A stretch of DNA of 45,546 nucleotides from a virus: positions 1 to 45,546 of IMG/VR virus record IMGVR_UViG_3300042934_000628. One strand, written 5' to 3'. Below the pieces are notes generated by a model. The model searched no databases. It saw only the letters and a list, made by a program, of their open reading frames with translations, and had not been told where the DNA came from. Both the position numbers and the translations under genes were made by a program. Shown piece after piece: positions 7,248-45,546 of this stretch; the first letter of the stretch is position 1; each line of letters opens with the position of its first letter.

Positions 7248-9191
7248 GTGGCCCGTCTGACGGTCAACAAGGACGGCAAGCTGGCCGGCGGGTCCCCGCG
7301 GGACCGCCGCATCTCCAAGGCGTCCTCGAAGGACAAGAAGCAGATCATCATCGCGACGGTGCGCATGGGGCACACCATCGCCGAGGGGTGCCACCAGGCG
7401 GGCGTGACCCGCAAGACGCACGAGTACTACCGGAAGAGTGACCCGGACTACCGGGACCTGATCGACCGGGCGTTGCAGAGCAACCTGGAGAAGTCCAAGG
7501 GTGACAAGCGCCCGGTGCCGGACTTCCCGGAGTTCTGCGAGCGGTACCTGAAGACGCAGCTCTTCCGGCACCACCTCCAGTGGTACGACCTCCTGGAGGG
7601 CCGCGAGCCCCGGGAGCTGCACCCGGCCCAGCGCTTCGTCCGCGGGGACGAAGACCAGATCGTGGTCAACACCCCGCCGGAGCACGCGAAGAGCACGACG
7701 CTCACCGTGAACTACGTGGTGTGGCGGATCGTCCAGGACCCGAACATCCGCATCCTGCTCGTGTCCAAGACGCAGTCCATGGCCGCCAAGTTCCTCTTCT
7801 CGATCAAGCAGCGGCTCGCCGAGTCCGAGACGTACTTGGACCTCCAGCAGCACTTCGGGCCGCCCGGCGGCTACCAGGAGGGCGCCAGCACCTGGAGCAG
7901 CACGCAGATCCGTGTGGCCGGAGCCGACTCCGGCGAGAAGGAGTACACGGTCGAGGCCGTCGGCATCGGCGGCCAGATCTACGGCACGCGTACGGACCTG
8001 GTCATCATGGACGACTGCGTGGACAACACGAATCACCAGCAGTTTGAGGCGCAGATCGACTGGATTCAGAACATCGTCGGCTCCCGCGTCGCCGACGTCG
8101 GCGGGCGCATGCTGCTCATCGGCACCCGCATGGCCACGGTGGACCTGTACTCCGAGATCCTGAAGCCGGCGTACTACTCCGAGGGCACCTCGCCCTGGAC
8201 GTACCTGACCCAGCCCGCGGTCCTCAACTTTGCCGACGACCCGAAGGACTGGGAGACCCTGTGGCCGGCGACCAACCGGCCGCCCGTGACCATCCAGGCC
8301 AGGAAGACGGCCCAGGAGGCCGGCTGGCCCAAGGACGGCCTCTGGCCGATGTGGCACGGCGAGGCCCTGGCCAGGAAGCGGCGCAAGATGACGCCGCGCA
8401 ACTGGTCGATGGTCTACATGCAAGACCAGGTCGCGGACGACGCGATCTTCAAGCAGGCCGACGTGCAGGGCTGCATCGACCGGGCCCGGTACCCGGGCCG
8501 CATGGGTGCCGGGCAGCCGCAGCACCGGCAGTACGGCATGGACGGCCTCCTCGTCATCGCCGGGCTGGACCCCGCCGCCGCGGGGTGCACGGCCATGCAG
8601 GTCTGGGGACTTGACCGCCGCACCGGAGTGCGGTGGGTGCTGGACGTCGTCAACAAGCGCGGCATGCCGCCGCACGAGATGCGCAGCGAGATCAAGCGCC
8701 TGACCGAGCGGTACGGCATCTCGGAGTGGCGGGTCGAGAAGAACGCCTACCAGGCGTCCATCGTTCAGGACCAGCTCATCAAGGACTACCTGACCGCCCG
8801 CGGCTGCCTCATCTCGCCGCACCACACGAACAGCAACAAGTGGGACCCCGATTTCGGTGTGGCCTCCATGGCCACGCTCTTCGAGGGCTGGCAGGACAAG
8901 CGGAACCTGATCCGGCTGCCGTCGCAGACGCAGAGCGAAGGCGTGCGCGCCTTCATCGAGCAGCTGTGCTCCTGGTTCCCGGAGACCAAGGGCCTGACCG
9001 ACACGGTCATGGCCGCCTGGTTCGTGGAGATCCGCTGCCGGGAGCTGATGGTCAGCGACTACAGCGGCTGGCACACGAACTCCTCCGAGTTCACCTCGGA
9101 GCGCGACCAGGCCGGACAGATGGTCGTGGACATCGACTTCGCCTTGCAGCAGCAGGGCGCTGGTGCCTGGGACGGGACGGTGAACTGGTGA
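7248..9191 (+). CDS. terL: Terminase large subunit with N-terminal HTH
   Basis: ATP-driven packaging motor and nuclease that cuts phage DNA and pumps it into the capsid through the portal. 647 aa. Walker A-type TPPEHAKST (142-150), Walker B LVIMDD (251-256), then an RNase H-like nuclease domain with D441 in AGLDPAAAG and a late TDTVMAAW segment. Residues 30-75 (IAEGCHQAGVTRKTHEYYRK) look like the DNA-binding HTH usually carried by a separate small terminase, and no separate TerS gene is seen. GTG start at 7248 with GGGGAGGTGG upstream; a small GC hairpin sits at about 7201-7230. First gene of the late operon. Confidence 0.97.
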   Translation: MARLTVNKDGKLAGGSPRDRRISKASSKDKKQIIIATVRMGHTIAEGCHQAGVTRKTHEYYRKSDPDYRDLIDRALQSNLEKSKGDKRPVPDFPEFCERYLKTQLFRHHLQWYDLLEGREPRELHPAQRFVRGDEDQIVVNTPPEHAKSTTLTVNYVVWRIVQDPNIRILLVSKTQSMAAKFLFSIKQRLAESETYLDLQQHFGPPGGYQEGASTWSSTQIRVAGADSGEKEYTVEAVGIGGQIYGTRTDLVIMDDCVDNTNHQQFEAQIDWIQNIVGSRVADVGGRMLLIGTRMATVDLYSEILKPAYYSEGTSPWTYLTQPAVLNFADDPKDWETLWPATNRPPVTIQARKTAQEAGWPKDGLWPMWHGEALARKRRKMTPRNWSMVYMQDQVADDAIFKQADVQGCIDRARYPGRMGAGQPQHRQYGMDGLLVIAGLDPAAAGCTAMQVWGLDRRTGVRWVLDVVNKRGMPPHEMRSEIKRLTERYGISEWRVEKNAYQASIVQDQLIKDYLTARGCLISPHHTNSNKWDPDFGVASMATLFEGWQDKRNLIRLPSQTQSEGVRAFIEQLCSWFPETKGLTDTVMAAWFVEIRCRELMVSDYSGWHTNSSEFTSERDQAGQMVVDIDFALQQQGAGAWDGTVNW

Positions 9192-36540: not shown

Positions 36541-37209
36541 TCAGGCGGGGACCGGGTTGTAGTTCGCGAAGGACTGCGCCACGTCGCCGTGGATCCAGTA
36601 GTTCCCGCCGCCAGCCCATGCGACCTTGCCGCGCAGCTGGTCCTTGTACTGCTCGCGGAACGCCTTGAACTGGTCCTTCATCTGGAAGGGCACATCGATC
36701 TTGTAGACCTGCGGCCAGTCGGCCGGACGCGGCTTGGGCCCGCGGTTGCCCTGCTGCTGGCCACCGCCGAACCCGCCCGGGGCGGGCGCCGGGGGCATCG
36801 GCATGCCGGGGGCCGGCGGGCCCTGGTAGCCCGGGGCGCCGGGCACGGAGACGTTCGGCCCGAACGGGGGCGGGGTGGGCACCTGCGGCATGCCCTGCGG
36901 AGGCGCCGCGGGGGCTCCCTGCGGCACGGGCGTGGCACCCAGGCCGTTGCCCAGGGCGGCGCCGGCCTTGATGGCGGCCCAGGCCCGGCCGATGGCCGCG
37001 CCGGCCTCGCCGCTCTCCAGCTCCTCGAAGGCGGTACGGACCTCGTCCGCGGTGTTCGCGCGGACCACGAGCATCGGGCCCTGGCCGTTCATGGAGATGG
37101 TGAAGCGGTGGTTGTGCGGGTTGTCCGGGTACGACGGGTAGACCTCGCCCGGACCGCTCCACTCCTGCTCGTCCTCGGCGGGGGCCTGCTCGGGCATGGT
37201 GTCGGTCAT
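36541..37209 (-). CDS. Hypothetical replication-associated protein (222 aa)
   Basis: MTDTMPEQAPAEDEQEWSGP onward: acidic N-terminus, a strand-helix core (RFTISMNGQGPMLVVRANTA), a long Pro/Gly/Met-rich linker (residues about 100-160) and a C-terminal conserved block ending WIHGDVAQSFANYNPVPA. Located just upstream of the helicase. I do not recognise a family; an SSB-like or mediator role is only a guess. Confidence 0.75.
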   Translation of the reverse strand: MTDTMPEQAPAEDEQEWSGPGEVYPSYPDNPHNHRFTISMNGQGPMLVVRANTADEVRTAFEELESGEAGAAIGRAWAAIKAGAALGNGLGATPVPQGAPAAPPQGMPQVPTPPPFGPNVSVPGAPGYQGPPAPGMPMPPAPAPGGFGGGQQQGNRGPKPRPADWPQVYKIDVPFQMKDQFKAFREQYKDQLRGKVAWAGGGNYWIHGDVAQSFANYNPVPA

Positions 37210-37994
37210 GCTGCCTCTTTCATGAGGTTCAGAAGGTGTTCGTACGCGGCATACGCCTGCACAGGCATGGCGCCATTGCCGATCTTGTGGAGCTGGTCCT
37301 TGCGGTCCAGCCCAGGGACTCCGGTGACATGGCCGGGCCGCAGGCCCATAAGCCACTCAGCGAAGGGGGCCGCCAGCCGGCGGCCCCCGCGGGGGCCCAT
37401 CTCCGTCGGAGCCGGAGCGGCGTGCCCGCTCAGTCGCTCCCATCGCCGGATGGCGGGCAAATACTCGCCCCACCAGCCGGCAGGCGAGTAACGGCTGTCC
37501 GCAGGTTCATCCCGCCCTTGCGGTTCGGGCTTGTCCCCGGCCCTCCCGTCCCGTCCGACGCCGTCGGCGTGGGGAAGAAGGAAGGAGACTTCGTCGTCAA
37601 GGGTTGGTCCGTGCCCCCCCCCGCGACGCTTGTCTGGGTGCTGCGCCGAGCCGTTCGTCCCGAGCTGCGCCGTCGGTGTCTTCAGGAGAAGAACCACTTC
37701 GTTCAGCGGCCTGGCGTTGACTCCGTGCAGGTTTGAGGCCCCCGACCGCCAGTCCCGGGCGGTCGGCGTGGGGAACTGCGATGCCGAACCAGCGGTCTCG
37801 CTGGTGGGCGGCTCCCACTCCGGAAGCTCGAAGAGTCGTCCACCAGAGGTCATACCCGACCGCGGCCAGGTCTTCAGCGACGACGTCGAGTCCCCGCGAG
37901 CGGAGCGCCGCAACGTTCTCCAGGAACGCGTGACGAGGTCGTATATCGCGAACGGCCCGGCAGACGTCCTTCCAGACCTTCGACCACTCGCCAT
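37206..37994 (-). CDS. Overlapping methyltransferase-associated protein, target-recognition/C-terminal part (262 aa)
   Basis: Frame +1 relative to the methyltransferase catalytic part. It carries repeated PTP-containing blocks (FPTPTARDWRSG, LLKTPTAQLGTNGS) typical of phage cytosine methyltransferase C-termini, and methyltransferase motif IX-X-like sequences (WGEYLPAIRRWE, RLAAPFAEWLMGLRPGHVTG, KIGNGAMPVQAYAA). ATG at 37994 has an excellent AGGAGGGA 8 nt upstream, inside the other gene's motif IV coding sequence. It probably supplies the DNA-recognition half of a split enzyme. Stop overlaps 36541-37209 start (ATGA). Confidence 0.7.
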   Translation of the reverse strand: MASGRRSGRTSAGPFAIYDLVTRSWRTLRRSARGDSTSSLKTWPRSGMTSGGRLFELPEWEPPTSETAGSASQFPTPTARDWRSGASNLHGVNARPLNEVVLLLKTPTAQLGTNGSAQHPDKRRGGGHGPTLDDEVSFLLPHADGVGRDGRAGDKPEPQGRDEPADSRYSPAGWWGEYLPAIRRWERLSGHAAPAPTEMGPRGGRRLAAPFAEWLMGLRPGHVTGVPGLDRKDQLHKIGNGAMPVQAYAAYEHLLNLMKEAA

Positions 37995-38250
37995 TGATTC
38001 CGTCCCTCCTGCCGGCGTTGGACGTGTTGCGGCAGGGGAAGCCCGCCGCGATGGTGTCCACCCCGCCAGCCAGCTGCGTGAAGTCGTACGTCGTGATGTC
38101 GCCGATGTTCGGCACGTCGGGCCAATGGTGCTTGAGCACGAGAGAGGCCGCCGGGTCGCTCTCCGCGACATAGGCGACCTTGTCCCCCGTCAGGGCCTCC
38201 ACGGCCATGTCCAGGCCGCCGTACCCGCTACACAGGCTCAGGATTGGCAC
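37597..38250 (-). CDS. DNA (cytosine-5) methyltransferase catalytic part
   Basis: 217 aa. Motif I ILSLCSGYGGLD, motif IV GFPCRNTSNAG with catalytic C73, motif VI ENV (111-113), motif VIII QRDRWFGIA. Ends soon after, without a target-recognition domain or motifs IX-X; these are encoded in the overlapping gene 37206-37994. GTG at 38250 with AAGGGGGCGGG upstream. A G9 run lies at 37614-37622 (minus strand). Modifies cytosines, likely to evade host restriction. Known precedents for split or overlapping C5 methyltransferases exist (M.AquI, M.EcoHK31I). Confidence 0.85.
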   Translation of the reverse strand: MPILSLCSGYGGLDMAVEALTGDKVAYVAESDPAASLVLKHHWPDVPNIGDITTYDFTQLAGGVDTIAAGFPCRNTSNAGRRDGINGEWSKVWKDVCRAVRDIRPRHAFLENVAALRSRGLDVVAEDLAAVGYDLWWTTLRASGVGAAHQRDRWFGIAVPHADRPGLAVGGLKPARSQRQAAERSGSSPEDTDGAARDERLGAAPRQASRGGARTNP

Positions 38251-38363
38251 CCCGCCCCCTTGGGGGGGAGCCAGACGGGCCCCCGGTAGGCGTGCCCGGG
38301 GTAGCCGGAGGCGACCTTCTTCAGGTGCTGGTCGTACGTACGGCCGCCGCACTTACACGTCAT
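38238..38363 (-). CDS. Small Cys-containing protein (41 aa)
   Basis: Starts MTCKCGGRTYDQHLKKVASG. C3, C5 and C39 plus H may bind metal. ATG at 38363 has GAGGAGAGGGAAGACG upstream. Overlaps the methyltransferase by 13 nt. Function unknown. Confidence 0.7.
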   Translation of the reverse strand: MTCKCGGRTYDQHLKKVASGYPGHAYRGPVWLPPKGAGCQS

Positions 38364-41130: not shown

Positions 41131-43191
41131 TCAGGCGGCCAAGTCCATACGAAAACGGATGACACCCGGAGTGACAGGCATGCTCGTGACCGTCCCTTCA
41201 GGTGCCGCCGGAACTCGAATGAGCAACCGCGGGTCGATCTTCCCCTCCACCAGCAGTGGAGGCAGGGGGTACGGGTCCAGCAGGGGAGTGCTCTCGCACT
41301 CCGCAAGGATGTCCATGGCCTGCTCGAAGAGGCCGGAGGCCACCCACCGCTGATAGCGGGTCGTGAGCCCCGTCGTCTTCCCGTACTGCTCGGGAAGCTC
41401 CTTCCACGTGCAGCCCGTACGGGCCTTCAGGAGCACCGCTTCGAGCACCTGGCGGTGCGGCAGGCGGTCCTTGCGCTGGCGCTTCTCCGAGCCCTCGAAG
41501 AGGGCCTGTACGCGGCTCCAGGCCGCATCGGTCAGCGTCGGTACGCCGCGGCCCCGCTCGCGGAACCAGGCGGTCAGCGTGTCGTCCGCCCGAACCTTCT
41601 TGGGGACCGCCCCGTTCAGCGTGACCTTCAGGTTCAGCAGGTCGCAGACCTCGGCCCGCTCCTCGGGCGTCATGTCCCGCATCTGCGTGCGGGCCACCTC
41701 GGCCAGGGCCTGGAGATCGTGCGCCCTCTGCTGGGCGAGATCCCCTTCCTTCTGCCACGCCAGGGCCTCGTCACGGAGCTTCACGAGCCCCGCTCGCTCG
41801 TCCTCCAGAGCCTTGGTCGCCTGGGCGACCGCTTCGGGGGACGTGCTCTTCGCGGCCAGGATCATCATGTTGGCGATGGCCTGGTCCTGGGCTTCGATCT
41901 TCTTGTTCAGGTCGTCCACGCGCTCGGCGTGGCCTGCGCCCTGGCCCGTGGCCATGTCCAGCCAGTCGGCTGCCATGGCGGTAAGGCGCTCCGGGTCCTG
42001 AAGGAGGCCGCAGACCTCCGACCAGACCTTGGCCTCCAGGGCGTCGGCGTCCACCTGAGAGCAGCCGCACACCTTGGCCCCGGCATGGGCCTCGATCTTC
42101 CCCGAGCACCGGTACATGCGGCCGGGCCGGTCGCACCGGTCAAGACCGGTGTAGTGCTTGCCGCACGCGCCGAAGACGCGCTTGGACAGCATGTGTACAC
42201 CGGATTCCTCGGCGCTCCTGCGGGAGCGCGCGTTCCGCGCCAGCGCCTTGTTCAGGCGCTCGACCTTGGCCACCGGCCAGAGCCGGGGCAGCTCGATGAC
42301 GACCGTCTGGCCGTTGACGGGCTGGCCGTCACGACCCAGCTTCGTGCCGCCCTTCCATCCGGCGGTGCCCGGGTCGCGATAGACCATCCGGGCTTCCTGA
42401 ATGGCCCGGGACTGGAGCCGGCGCCGGAGGTTGCCGGCGGTCCAGGGCTTGCCGTTCCTGGACCGGAAGCCTTCGGCGTTCATCGCCATCGCCGCCTGGC
42501 GGCAGTTCTTGGACTCGACGACGATCAGGCTCCAGGCCCTCTCCAGGGCCTCCGTCTCGTGGACGACTGCGCAGTGGCCGTCTGCGGGGCAGACGTCCAG
42601 CACCAGCTGGCTTTCGCCCTTGATGCCCTTGTCCTTGATGCGCCAGCCGTACGGGGCGGTCCCTCCCGGGTGCCCGCCCTCCTCGGCCTTCTCCTGGATG
42701 CCGCTCTGCGTGCGGACCCTGATGCGCGTGTACTCCTTGAAGGCGTAGTTCGCCTCGTCACGCATCTGGGCTTCGCCCTCTTCGGTGGTGGTGTCGAAGT
42801 CCTTGTCCACCACGGCCACGGAGATGTTCAGTTCGTCCAGGTCCCATACCCAGCGCCAGAAGACCCGGTCCTTGCGGCCGATGGCCCGCGTCTCGGAGAC
42901 CACGACCACGTCGAAGGGGCGCGGCTCTTGTCGGGCCAACTTCATCAGGCGGGGCAGGTCGTCCCGCTCCTGCCAGGGCAGGGAGCCGGAGACTCCCTCG
43001 TCCTTAAAGGTGTCGACATGAGCCCAGCCCTTGGCGGCGATGTATTTCGCCGTCTTCTTGGCGCTGTAGCTGATGCCGTACCCCTGCCTCTGCTGCTCCG
43101 TGGATACCCGGAGATAGTCCACGGCCCGGAGCCGCCCTGCCTGGGCGGCCCTGTCCGCCACGGCGATGGCGCTCGTGAGAGTGTTGGTCAC
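41131..43191 (-). CDS. int: Large serine integrase with C-terminal IS5-type (DUF4096) domain
   Basis: Site-specific recombinase catalysing attP x attB integration. 686 aa. Serine recombinase domain with nucleophile S30 in DYLRVSTEQQ, DEGVSGS, and a recombinase zinc-ribbon (FGACGK, YRCSG, KVCGC). A coiled coil lies at about 420-480. Residues 551-629 (TLTDAAWSRVQALFEGSEK, RTGCTWKELPEQYG) match the N-terminal DNA-binding DUF4096 region of IS5-family transposases, an unexpected fusion, followed by a 57-residue tail. GTG at 43191 with AAGGGACTGAC upstream. Confidence 0.93.
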   Translation of the reverse strand: MTNTLTSAIAVADRAAQAGRLRAVDYLRVSTEQQRQGYGISYSAKKTAKYIAAKGWAHVDTFKDEGVSGSLPWQERDDLPRLMKLARQEPRPFDVVVVSETRAIGRKDRVFWRWVWDLDELNISVAVVDKDFDTTTEEGEAQMRDEANYAFKEYTRIRVRTQSGIQEKAEEGGHPGGTAPYGWRIKDKGIKGESQLVLDVCPADGHCAVVHETEALERAWSLIVVESKNCRQAAMAMNAEGFRSRNGKPWTAGNLRRRLQSRAIQEARMVYRDPGTAGWKGGTKLGRDGQPVNGQTVVIELPRLWPVAKVERLNKALARNARSRRSAEESGVHMLSKRVFGACGKHYTGLDRCDRPGRMYRCSGKIEAHAGAKVCGCSQVDADALEAKVWSEVCGLLQDPERLTAMAADWLDMATGQGAGHAERVDDLNKKIEAQDQAIANMMILAAKSTSPEAVAQATKALEDERAGLVKLRDEALAWQKEGDLAQQRAHDLQALAEVARTQMRDMTPEERAEVCDLLNLKVTLNGAVPKKVRADDTLTAWFRERGRGVPTLTDAAWSRVQALFEGSEKRQRKDRLPHRQVLEAVLLKARTGCTWKELPEQYGKTTGLTTRYQRWVASGLFEQAMDILAECESTPLLDPYPLPPLLVEGKIDPRLLIRVPAAPEGTVTSMPVTPGVIRFRMDLAA

Positions 43192-43265
43192 GTCAGTCCC
43201 TTCGCGACTGGCCGACCCCGGTTGCGCCTTGCCCGCGCGCCGGGGTCACCTGTGTGCCGCAGATC
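43192..43265 (-). promoter_or_regulatory. Integrase upstream region with hairpin; candidate att site
   Basis: Contains GACCCCGG ... CCGGGGTC arms (43223-43257) and two direct copies of TGCCGCAG around 43256-43276. Serine-integrase attP sites often lie next to the gene, but no diagnostic core can be assigned from sequence alone. Confidence 0.35.
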
Positions 43266-43433
43266 TTATGCCGCAGGGGTGTCCGCGCGGGGACTGAACA
43301 GGAGTCTCAACAGGCGCCGGTAGGCGTCCTCGTCGTGCTCGTCGGCCGCTTCCCAGCGGATGGTGACCTCGGGCTGGTGCTCTCGGAGCCAGGCGCCGGC
43401 CTCCTCGGCCGTGATGCGCTCCCCGTCCTGCAT
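43266..43433 (-). CDS. Hypothetical acidic protein (55 aa)
   Basis: MQDGERITAEEAGAWLREHQ onward; helical, acidic. Perfect AAGGAGGGGCC before the ATG. It is upstream of the integrase in the leftward transcript. It might be a recombination directionality factor, but I see nothing that shows this. Confidence 0.7.
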   Translation of the reverse strand: MQDGERITAEEAGAWLREHQPEVTIRWEAADEHDEDAYRRLLRLLFSPRADTPAA

Positions 43434-45517: not shown

Positions 45518-45546
45518 CCGCGCGAGGCGTTGGCCGTCCCTTCGGG
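45518..45546. repeat. Terminal direct repeat, right copy (matches 1-29)
   Basis: Exact 29-base match to positions 1-29. See left copy. It supports circular or terminally redundant topology. Confidence 0.95.

Follow-up and report, generated by a model that had tools for sequence, protein, structure and literature searches.

Introduction

Serine integrases are standard genome-engineering tools, and how they discriminate between the four att sites is the central question in their study. The structurally solved large serine integrases of phiC31, Bxb1, SPbeta and A118/LI have catalytic, recombinase, zinc ribbon and coiled-coil parts in common with the enzyme described here; sequence similarity is limited to this core, and we know of no DUF4096 module in any of them. 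In the LI integrase, the zinc and recombinase domains together read a 25-bp half-site (PMC3783163). The directionality factor gp3 of phiC31 exerts its effect via the zinc domain, in the part that follows the coiled coil (PMC5814800). One clade of large serine recombinases, TndX-like and multi-targeting, sets a precedent in that it is marked by an additional domain of unknown function, DUF4368 (Durrant et al. 2022, PMC10083194). The integrase analysed here differs from these in both domain and clade, and a Pfam scan of the protein gave no DUF4368 match. Closest to it are the integrases of the Arquatrovirinae Streptomyces phages (phiHau3, Janus, Hank144, Tefunt, Sentinel and Spernnie), which show the same domain order, the same additional module and the same module site, as well as the same strand-like C-terminal tail. 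In contrast, they are only ~26-30% identical to it overall, their DUF4096 matches fall below the Pfam cut-off and they have the canonical D-R-I-G-R motif.

The integrase gene and its domains

The window, i.e. the whole stretch of 45,546 bases of an IMG/VR record, begins and ends with the same 29-bp sequence in direct orientation (1-29 and 45518-45546). Such a terminal repeat is what remains when a circular or permuted genome is assembled, and the phage is probably complete. A DNA methyltransferase is apparently encoded in two overlapping frames on the minus strand (37206-38171 and 37597-38352, together 37206-38352), which points to a frameshift or to overlapping genes.

The large serine integrase gene (int; 41131-43191) starts with GTG and codes for 686 residues. 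It was delineated from the list of open reading frames and from Pfam and PHROG matches, the latter to the integrase family phrog_95 over residues 15-550. This gene and all protein features described below lie on the minus strand. The catalytic (resolvase) domain (42673-43125, residues 23-173; Pfam PF00239, 80.6 bits) is matched by those of Bxb1 (9iu2) and TP901-1 (3bvp) in phmmer searches. Its catalytic nucleophile is Ser30 of a Y-x-R-V-S motif (Y26-L-R-V-S30 in the window) that is conserved among relatives. It is followed by a Recombinase domain (42397-42555, residues 213-265; PF07508) and a zinc ribbon (42013-42192, residues 334-393; PF13408, Zn_ribbon_recom), both over the Pfam cut-off, and by the coiled-coil helices (41683-41931, residues 421-503), which AlphaFold2 predicts at residues 421-447 and 452-503. 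Directly before the start codon of int, at ~43195-43252 on the same strand, are a hairpin, GACCCCGG...CCGGGGTC, and a CAGTC...GACTG pair. This hairpin is conserved in many relatives, the distant L080 and L081 among them, and possibly controls the translation or transcription of int.

An IS5-type module inserted into the zinc domain

An earlier note on this DNA had described residues 551-629 (exactly 41541-41305) as an IS5-like DUF4096 domain followed by no transposase DDE part. Both statements held. The Pfam scan of the protein placed DUF4096, the IS4/5-type or insertion element IS402-like N-terminal domain, at residues 553-625 with 67.9 bits (E=8.9e-19), nearly twice the gathering cut-off of 34.3 bits for this family, and covered profile positions 1-75 of 76. 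An independent six-frame search of the record scored the domain at 72.3 bits and returned no second DUF4096 match. The 258-position NCBIfam model of IS5 transposases matched only over its N-terminal positions 4-83, which indicates that the DDE part is missing, and the Pfam scan detected no DDE family in the integrase. Reciprocally, a profile built from integrase modules alone found 19 of 19 IS5 loci over nearly their full length (40-78 bits). The margin over the cut-off, the agreement of the second library and the reciprocal profile rule out a chance match. Thus, the window protein has the 75-residue DUF4096 domain of IS5-family transposases with the same scaffold residues; unlike them, it lacks the DDE catalytic domain and carries DUF4096 embedded in a serine recombinase.

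The position behind the coiled coil suggested in that note was correct, but the domain is not simply appended. It belongs to a larger module (41257-41604, about residues 530-645) made of a W..R.R..VP helix, the IS5-type helix-turn-helix domain (41305-41541, residues 551-629) and a linker. This module fills a loop between two strands in the C-terminal part of the zinc domain, directly behind the coiled coil, and conserved sequence continues C-terminal to it. In the AlphaFold2 model, the strand before the insert is VTLN (41617-41628, residues 522-525), which is kept in relatives with and without the module, and the strand after it is LVEGKID (41236-41256, residues 646-652). The alignments show the whole module to be cleanly absent, as one unit, from L007, L044/L045, L100 and L104. 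These relatives read LLNLRIAVKG...LPPMEMTG or LLDVQVTLTS-VPR...AGLPDFEVRG, where the window has LLNLKVTLNG, ~115 residues and then PLPPLLVEGKID.

The full-length AlphaFold2 model, based on 36 sequences, has a mean pLDDT of 81.3, and the module is predicted to be all helical in it, with block means mostly of 77-96. Modelled alone from 27 sequences, the module reached a pLDDT of 88.4 and a pTM of 0.78. Foldseek searches with the whole model returned the Bxb1, SPbeta and phiC31 integrases as best matches. With the module alone, Foldseek gave no PDB match below an E value of 3, and the best that VIA-align gave, helical folds of the TFIIB/cyclin type, had Z scores no higher than 3.6, at the level of noise. 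No sequence relative of the domain was found in the PDB, nor was any solved structure there that resembles the module closely enough to indicate a DNA-binding mode. A search of BFVD with the module retrieved one unnamed protein of 137 residues (E 0.003).

Distribution of the module among relatives

The note had called for the same architecture to be sought in other integrases, and it was found in Streptomyces phages, IMG/VR contigs and Streptomyces genomes. In tblastn searches of phage records, 24 Streptomyces phage records aligned over at least 80% of the protein with 26-30% identity. The integrases of the phiHau3, Janus, Hank144, Tefunt and Sentinel phage groups have the same module at the same position. 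All five proteins scanned from these 24 records (Hank144, phiHau3, Spernnie, Animus and Tefunt) showed DUF4096 at that place, with 17.8-27.8 bits, i.e. below the cut-off. Single-protein scans of viral and genome contigs retrieved no close relatives, so that alignment queries were needed, and a scan of viral contigs with one alignment, A6, gave no match. Alignment searches of IMG/VR identified closer relatives, including L042 (~50% identity), L043 (45%) and L008 (44%). The nearest relative, L063, is 78% identical over the core. Matches with E<=1e-30 occur in 26 of 199 Streptomyces genomes and extend through the module region in 23 of the 199. One Streptomyces contig, L041, carries an integrase gene with an in-frame TAG. 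Among 35 diverse members scanned, 33 have DUF4096 at E<=0.01, the two without a domain match being L007 and L044, and the module is retained in all 22 chromosomal copies examined.

With regard to hosts other than Streptomyces, a class-wide search for the junction between strand and module detected it in 8 of 394 genomes, and in a phylum-wide search other actinobacterial serine recombinases matched only up to the end of the coiled coil; few candidates per genome were scored in both searches. Together, these proteins form a group of large serine integrases that have domesticated an IS5 domain, and we found no description of such a group in the literature searched. The note knew of no integrase class of this kind, and no paper on one with DUF4096 was found in the open-access literature that we searched; the architecture may already be recorded in domain catalogues built from sequence.

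An attP site within the integrase gene

The attP site of serine integrases has been described upstream or downstream of their genes (SV1 paper, PMC4068962). In the window, the attP region lies inside int (41160-41210; extent approximate), with the crossover at ~41182-41186, that is, at codon 669-670. We found no other serine integrase with attP in its coding end in the literature searched, mostly without subscription journals. The assignment stems from a 3.2-kb remnant in Streptomyces genome G108. On the int side, its similarity to the window stops at 41183; on the other side it starts again at 41184, which locates the crossover from both sides. Both attL and attR of this remnant are readable (positions 8159 and 11311 of L155). 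Joining the two flanks to recreate the empty site restores the frame of the host gene; the protein that it encodes scores 58.4 bits against the MpaB/rubber-oxygenase family. The junction in a second genome, G091, falls in the same kind of gene, as judged by translated sequence. For the window, site-specific integration at a unique attB is suggested by relatives, through both junctions in G108 and the shared gene type in G091. The G108 remnant itself (L155, 8159-11311), lodged in the host oxygenase gene, has little beyond int between attL and attR.

Since attP lies within the 3' end of int, the C-terminal tail of the protein (41134-41184; PVTPGVIRFRMDLAA) would be replaced on integration. The free-phage tails are strand-like, PGVIRFRMDLAA in the window and SGFEFEIASTKAS in the Janus group, whereas the chromosomal copies end differently. 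Several of the latter (among L060-L086) run in frame into host genes, namely those for an MFS transporter, a PNKP-type ligase, an AMP-binding enzyme and a DprA-like C-terminus, DprA being assigned from the pattern of the sequence together with a winged-helix match that is weak and does not reach the cut-off. As read from these sequences, integration replaces the last ~17 residues of the integrase with host-encoded ones. The confidence of AlphaFold2 in the tail is low, below 50 for residues 657-679 and 681-686.

With attP in int, nature also offers integrases that have one C-terminus before integration and another after it. One might go further and regard these enzymes as a self-rewriting family, in which the IS5 module adds a DNA contact by the crossover and integration swaps the C-terminal strand for one encoded by the host, which could help to set the direction of recombination. 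We consider this idea unlikely: were it true, the free-phage and prophage enzymes would differ, and that difference could contribute to directionality.

Evolutionary history of the module

In a tree of the integrase core, built on residues ~20-520, the 47 ingroup rows of the module-bearing lineage lie on one side of a branch with SH-aLRT 99, and the window groups with L063 and L062 at 100. The state of the module changes three times on this tree, which fits one gain and two losses, one in the L044/L100/L104 group and the other in L007. The domain tree, in which 18 IS5 rows were included, is built on few columns, and its forks are weak. Constraining the IS5 rows to a single clade costs 0.07 log units in it and is not rejected (AU p=0.51), and the integrase and IS5 labels require 2 changes, as compared with a mean of 15.7 after shuffling. 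IS5 elements are abundant in Streptomyces.

The simplest reading of these data is a single, old, in-frame capture of an IS5 DUF4096 domain, ancestral to the integrase lineage, with at least two losses of the module. The suggestion in the earlier note that an IS fragment had been captured and kept in frame therefore stands with regard to capture, although not as a fresh fragment in one gene, as the domain is ancestral in the whole lineage and under purifying selection. A recent, private capture by this phage alone would account for the fact that the window domain was the most IS5-like of the first set (67.9 bits, vs. 17.8-27.8 in the phage relatives). However, full-length module-bearing relatives occur across the lineage, and the window groups with them and not with any IS5. 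Such a capture is accordingly extremely improbable, the spread of the module and the trees having ruled it out.

The NG86 dN/dS ratios of the module range from 0 to 0.43 in 18 of 18 pairs, similar to those of the core. Values well below 1 indicate purifying selection, and hence that the module is maintained. Its history is mosaic in one group. Between L060 and L061, the cores hardly differ (dN 0.02) but the modules do (dN 0.19), the modules of L043 and L061 are identical, and L066 is closer to L061 in the module than in the core. This mosaic among copies in the same target gene suggests that the 3' part of int is exchanged between prophages. We dropped this exchange as proof of a role in specificity: L060, L061, L043 and L066 all reside in a dprA-like gene, with int adjoining the host flank, and thus the module may simply have hitch-hiked with that flank.

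Possible roles of the module

That a transposase N-terminal domain should bind DNA is established knowledge, and the IS5 ancestry of the module, its scaffold and its location next to the zinc domain together lead us to favour, at slightly better than an even chance, a putative accessory DNA-contacting module of the zinc domain. Target binding, which the earlier note raised as one possibility, is plausible. The captured domain would keep the IS5 helix-turn-helix scaffold and would project from the zinc domain beside the outer arm of the att half-site. There it might add DNA contacts, which in turn could help the integrase to bind attP, attB, attL and attR or to tell them apart, with a putative effect on site choice or direction. 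The scaffold residues D555, W558, R580, G593, W596, G604, W616 and G620 are nearly fixed in both integrases and IS5. The putative recognition helix (residues 605-615) is variable in integrases and largely fixed in IS5, a contrast weakened by the greater diversity of the integrase set. Several observations count against DNA contact: the mean net charge of the module is +1.6 in integrases vs. +5.1 in IS5 (+4 in the window), four relatives do without it, and the searches of solved structures gave no match from which to read a DNA-binding mode. Moreover, L060 and L061 share a dprA-like target and nearly the same core with clearly different modules. As the modules also differ within the wider set that shares this target (L060, L061, L043, L066 and L068), the target gene is not set by the module on its own.

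The main rival is that the module serves as a protein-protein surface, docking a directionality factor or steering the coiled coil; its task would then be to control synapsis or excision and not to read DNA. This rival owes its standing to phiC31 gp3, whose action falls on this very part of the zinc domain: the module lies behind the coiled coil, in the region to which phiC31 mutations abolishing the binding of gp3 have been mapped (I582 and W526; PMC5814800). The surface positions of the module vary widely around its fixed scaffold, and a conserved small ORF adjoining int could be the partner. This ORF of 55 residues (43266-43433, minus strand; MQDGERITAEEAGAWL...LLRLLFSPRADTPAA), directly upstream of int, has no Pfam match and recurs upstream of int in the relatives at ~55-60 residues. 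It is a candidate directionality factor or regulator. However, it does not track the module, being also present in the module-less L044/L045, L051/L007 and L100, and this occurrence with and without the module rules it out as a module-specific partner. As the IS5 ancestry also favours DNA binding, we regard the protein surface as possible but doubtful.

The module could also be a tolerated insertion of little function, retained because the loop accepts an insert. Its clean absence at two separate places in the tree would agree with this, as would its exchange near the 3' end, if the module merely travels along with the neighbouring att site and host flank. Against this speak the dN/dS values of all 18 pairs, the scaffold residues, which are fixed in relatives down to ~26% overall identity, and the retention of the module in every chromosomal copy examined, so that we consider an insert of little function quite improbable. 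An accessory DNA contact remains our preferred reading. The module sits where direction is controlled, in a lineage present in about one-ninth of the sampled Streptomyces genomes. Since some relatives naturally lack it, what it contributes can be tested directly, by a clean deletion or a swap.

A shifted catalytic arginine

The canonical catalytic arginine pair of serine recombinases, D-R-x-x-R, corresponds to Arg68 and Arg71 in gamma-delta numbering. Alignment of the relatives and phmmer matches to Bxb1 and TP901-1 showed that the corresponding motif in the window is SETRAIGR (42874-42897, residues 99-106). Where D-R-(I/L)-G-R is usual, the window has R-A-I-G-R; the second arginine is kept and the first is shifted by one residue. 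In the alignment, E-x-R-(A/V/G)-I-G-R is fixed throughout the subclade of the window, module-less members included. D-R-(I/L)-x-R is nearly universal otherwise, and D-R is retained in the phiHau3/Janus group, L047, L048, L050, L066 and L078-L081. As the genes of the R-A-I-G-R subclade are intact and under purifying selection, their integrases are expected to be active. In L075, the motif reads E-D-R-V-I-G-R, as though D-R had moved along as a pair, by a single residue.
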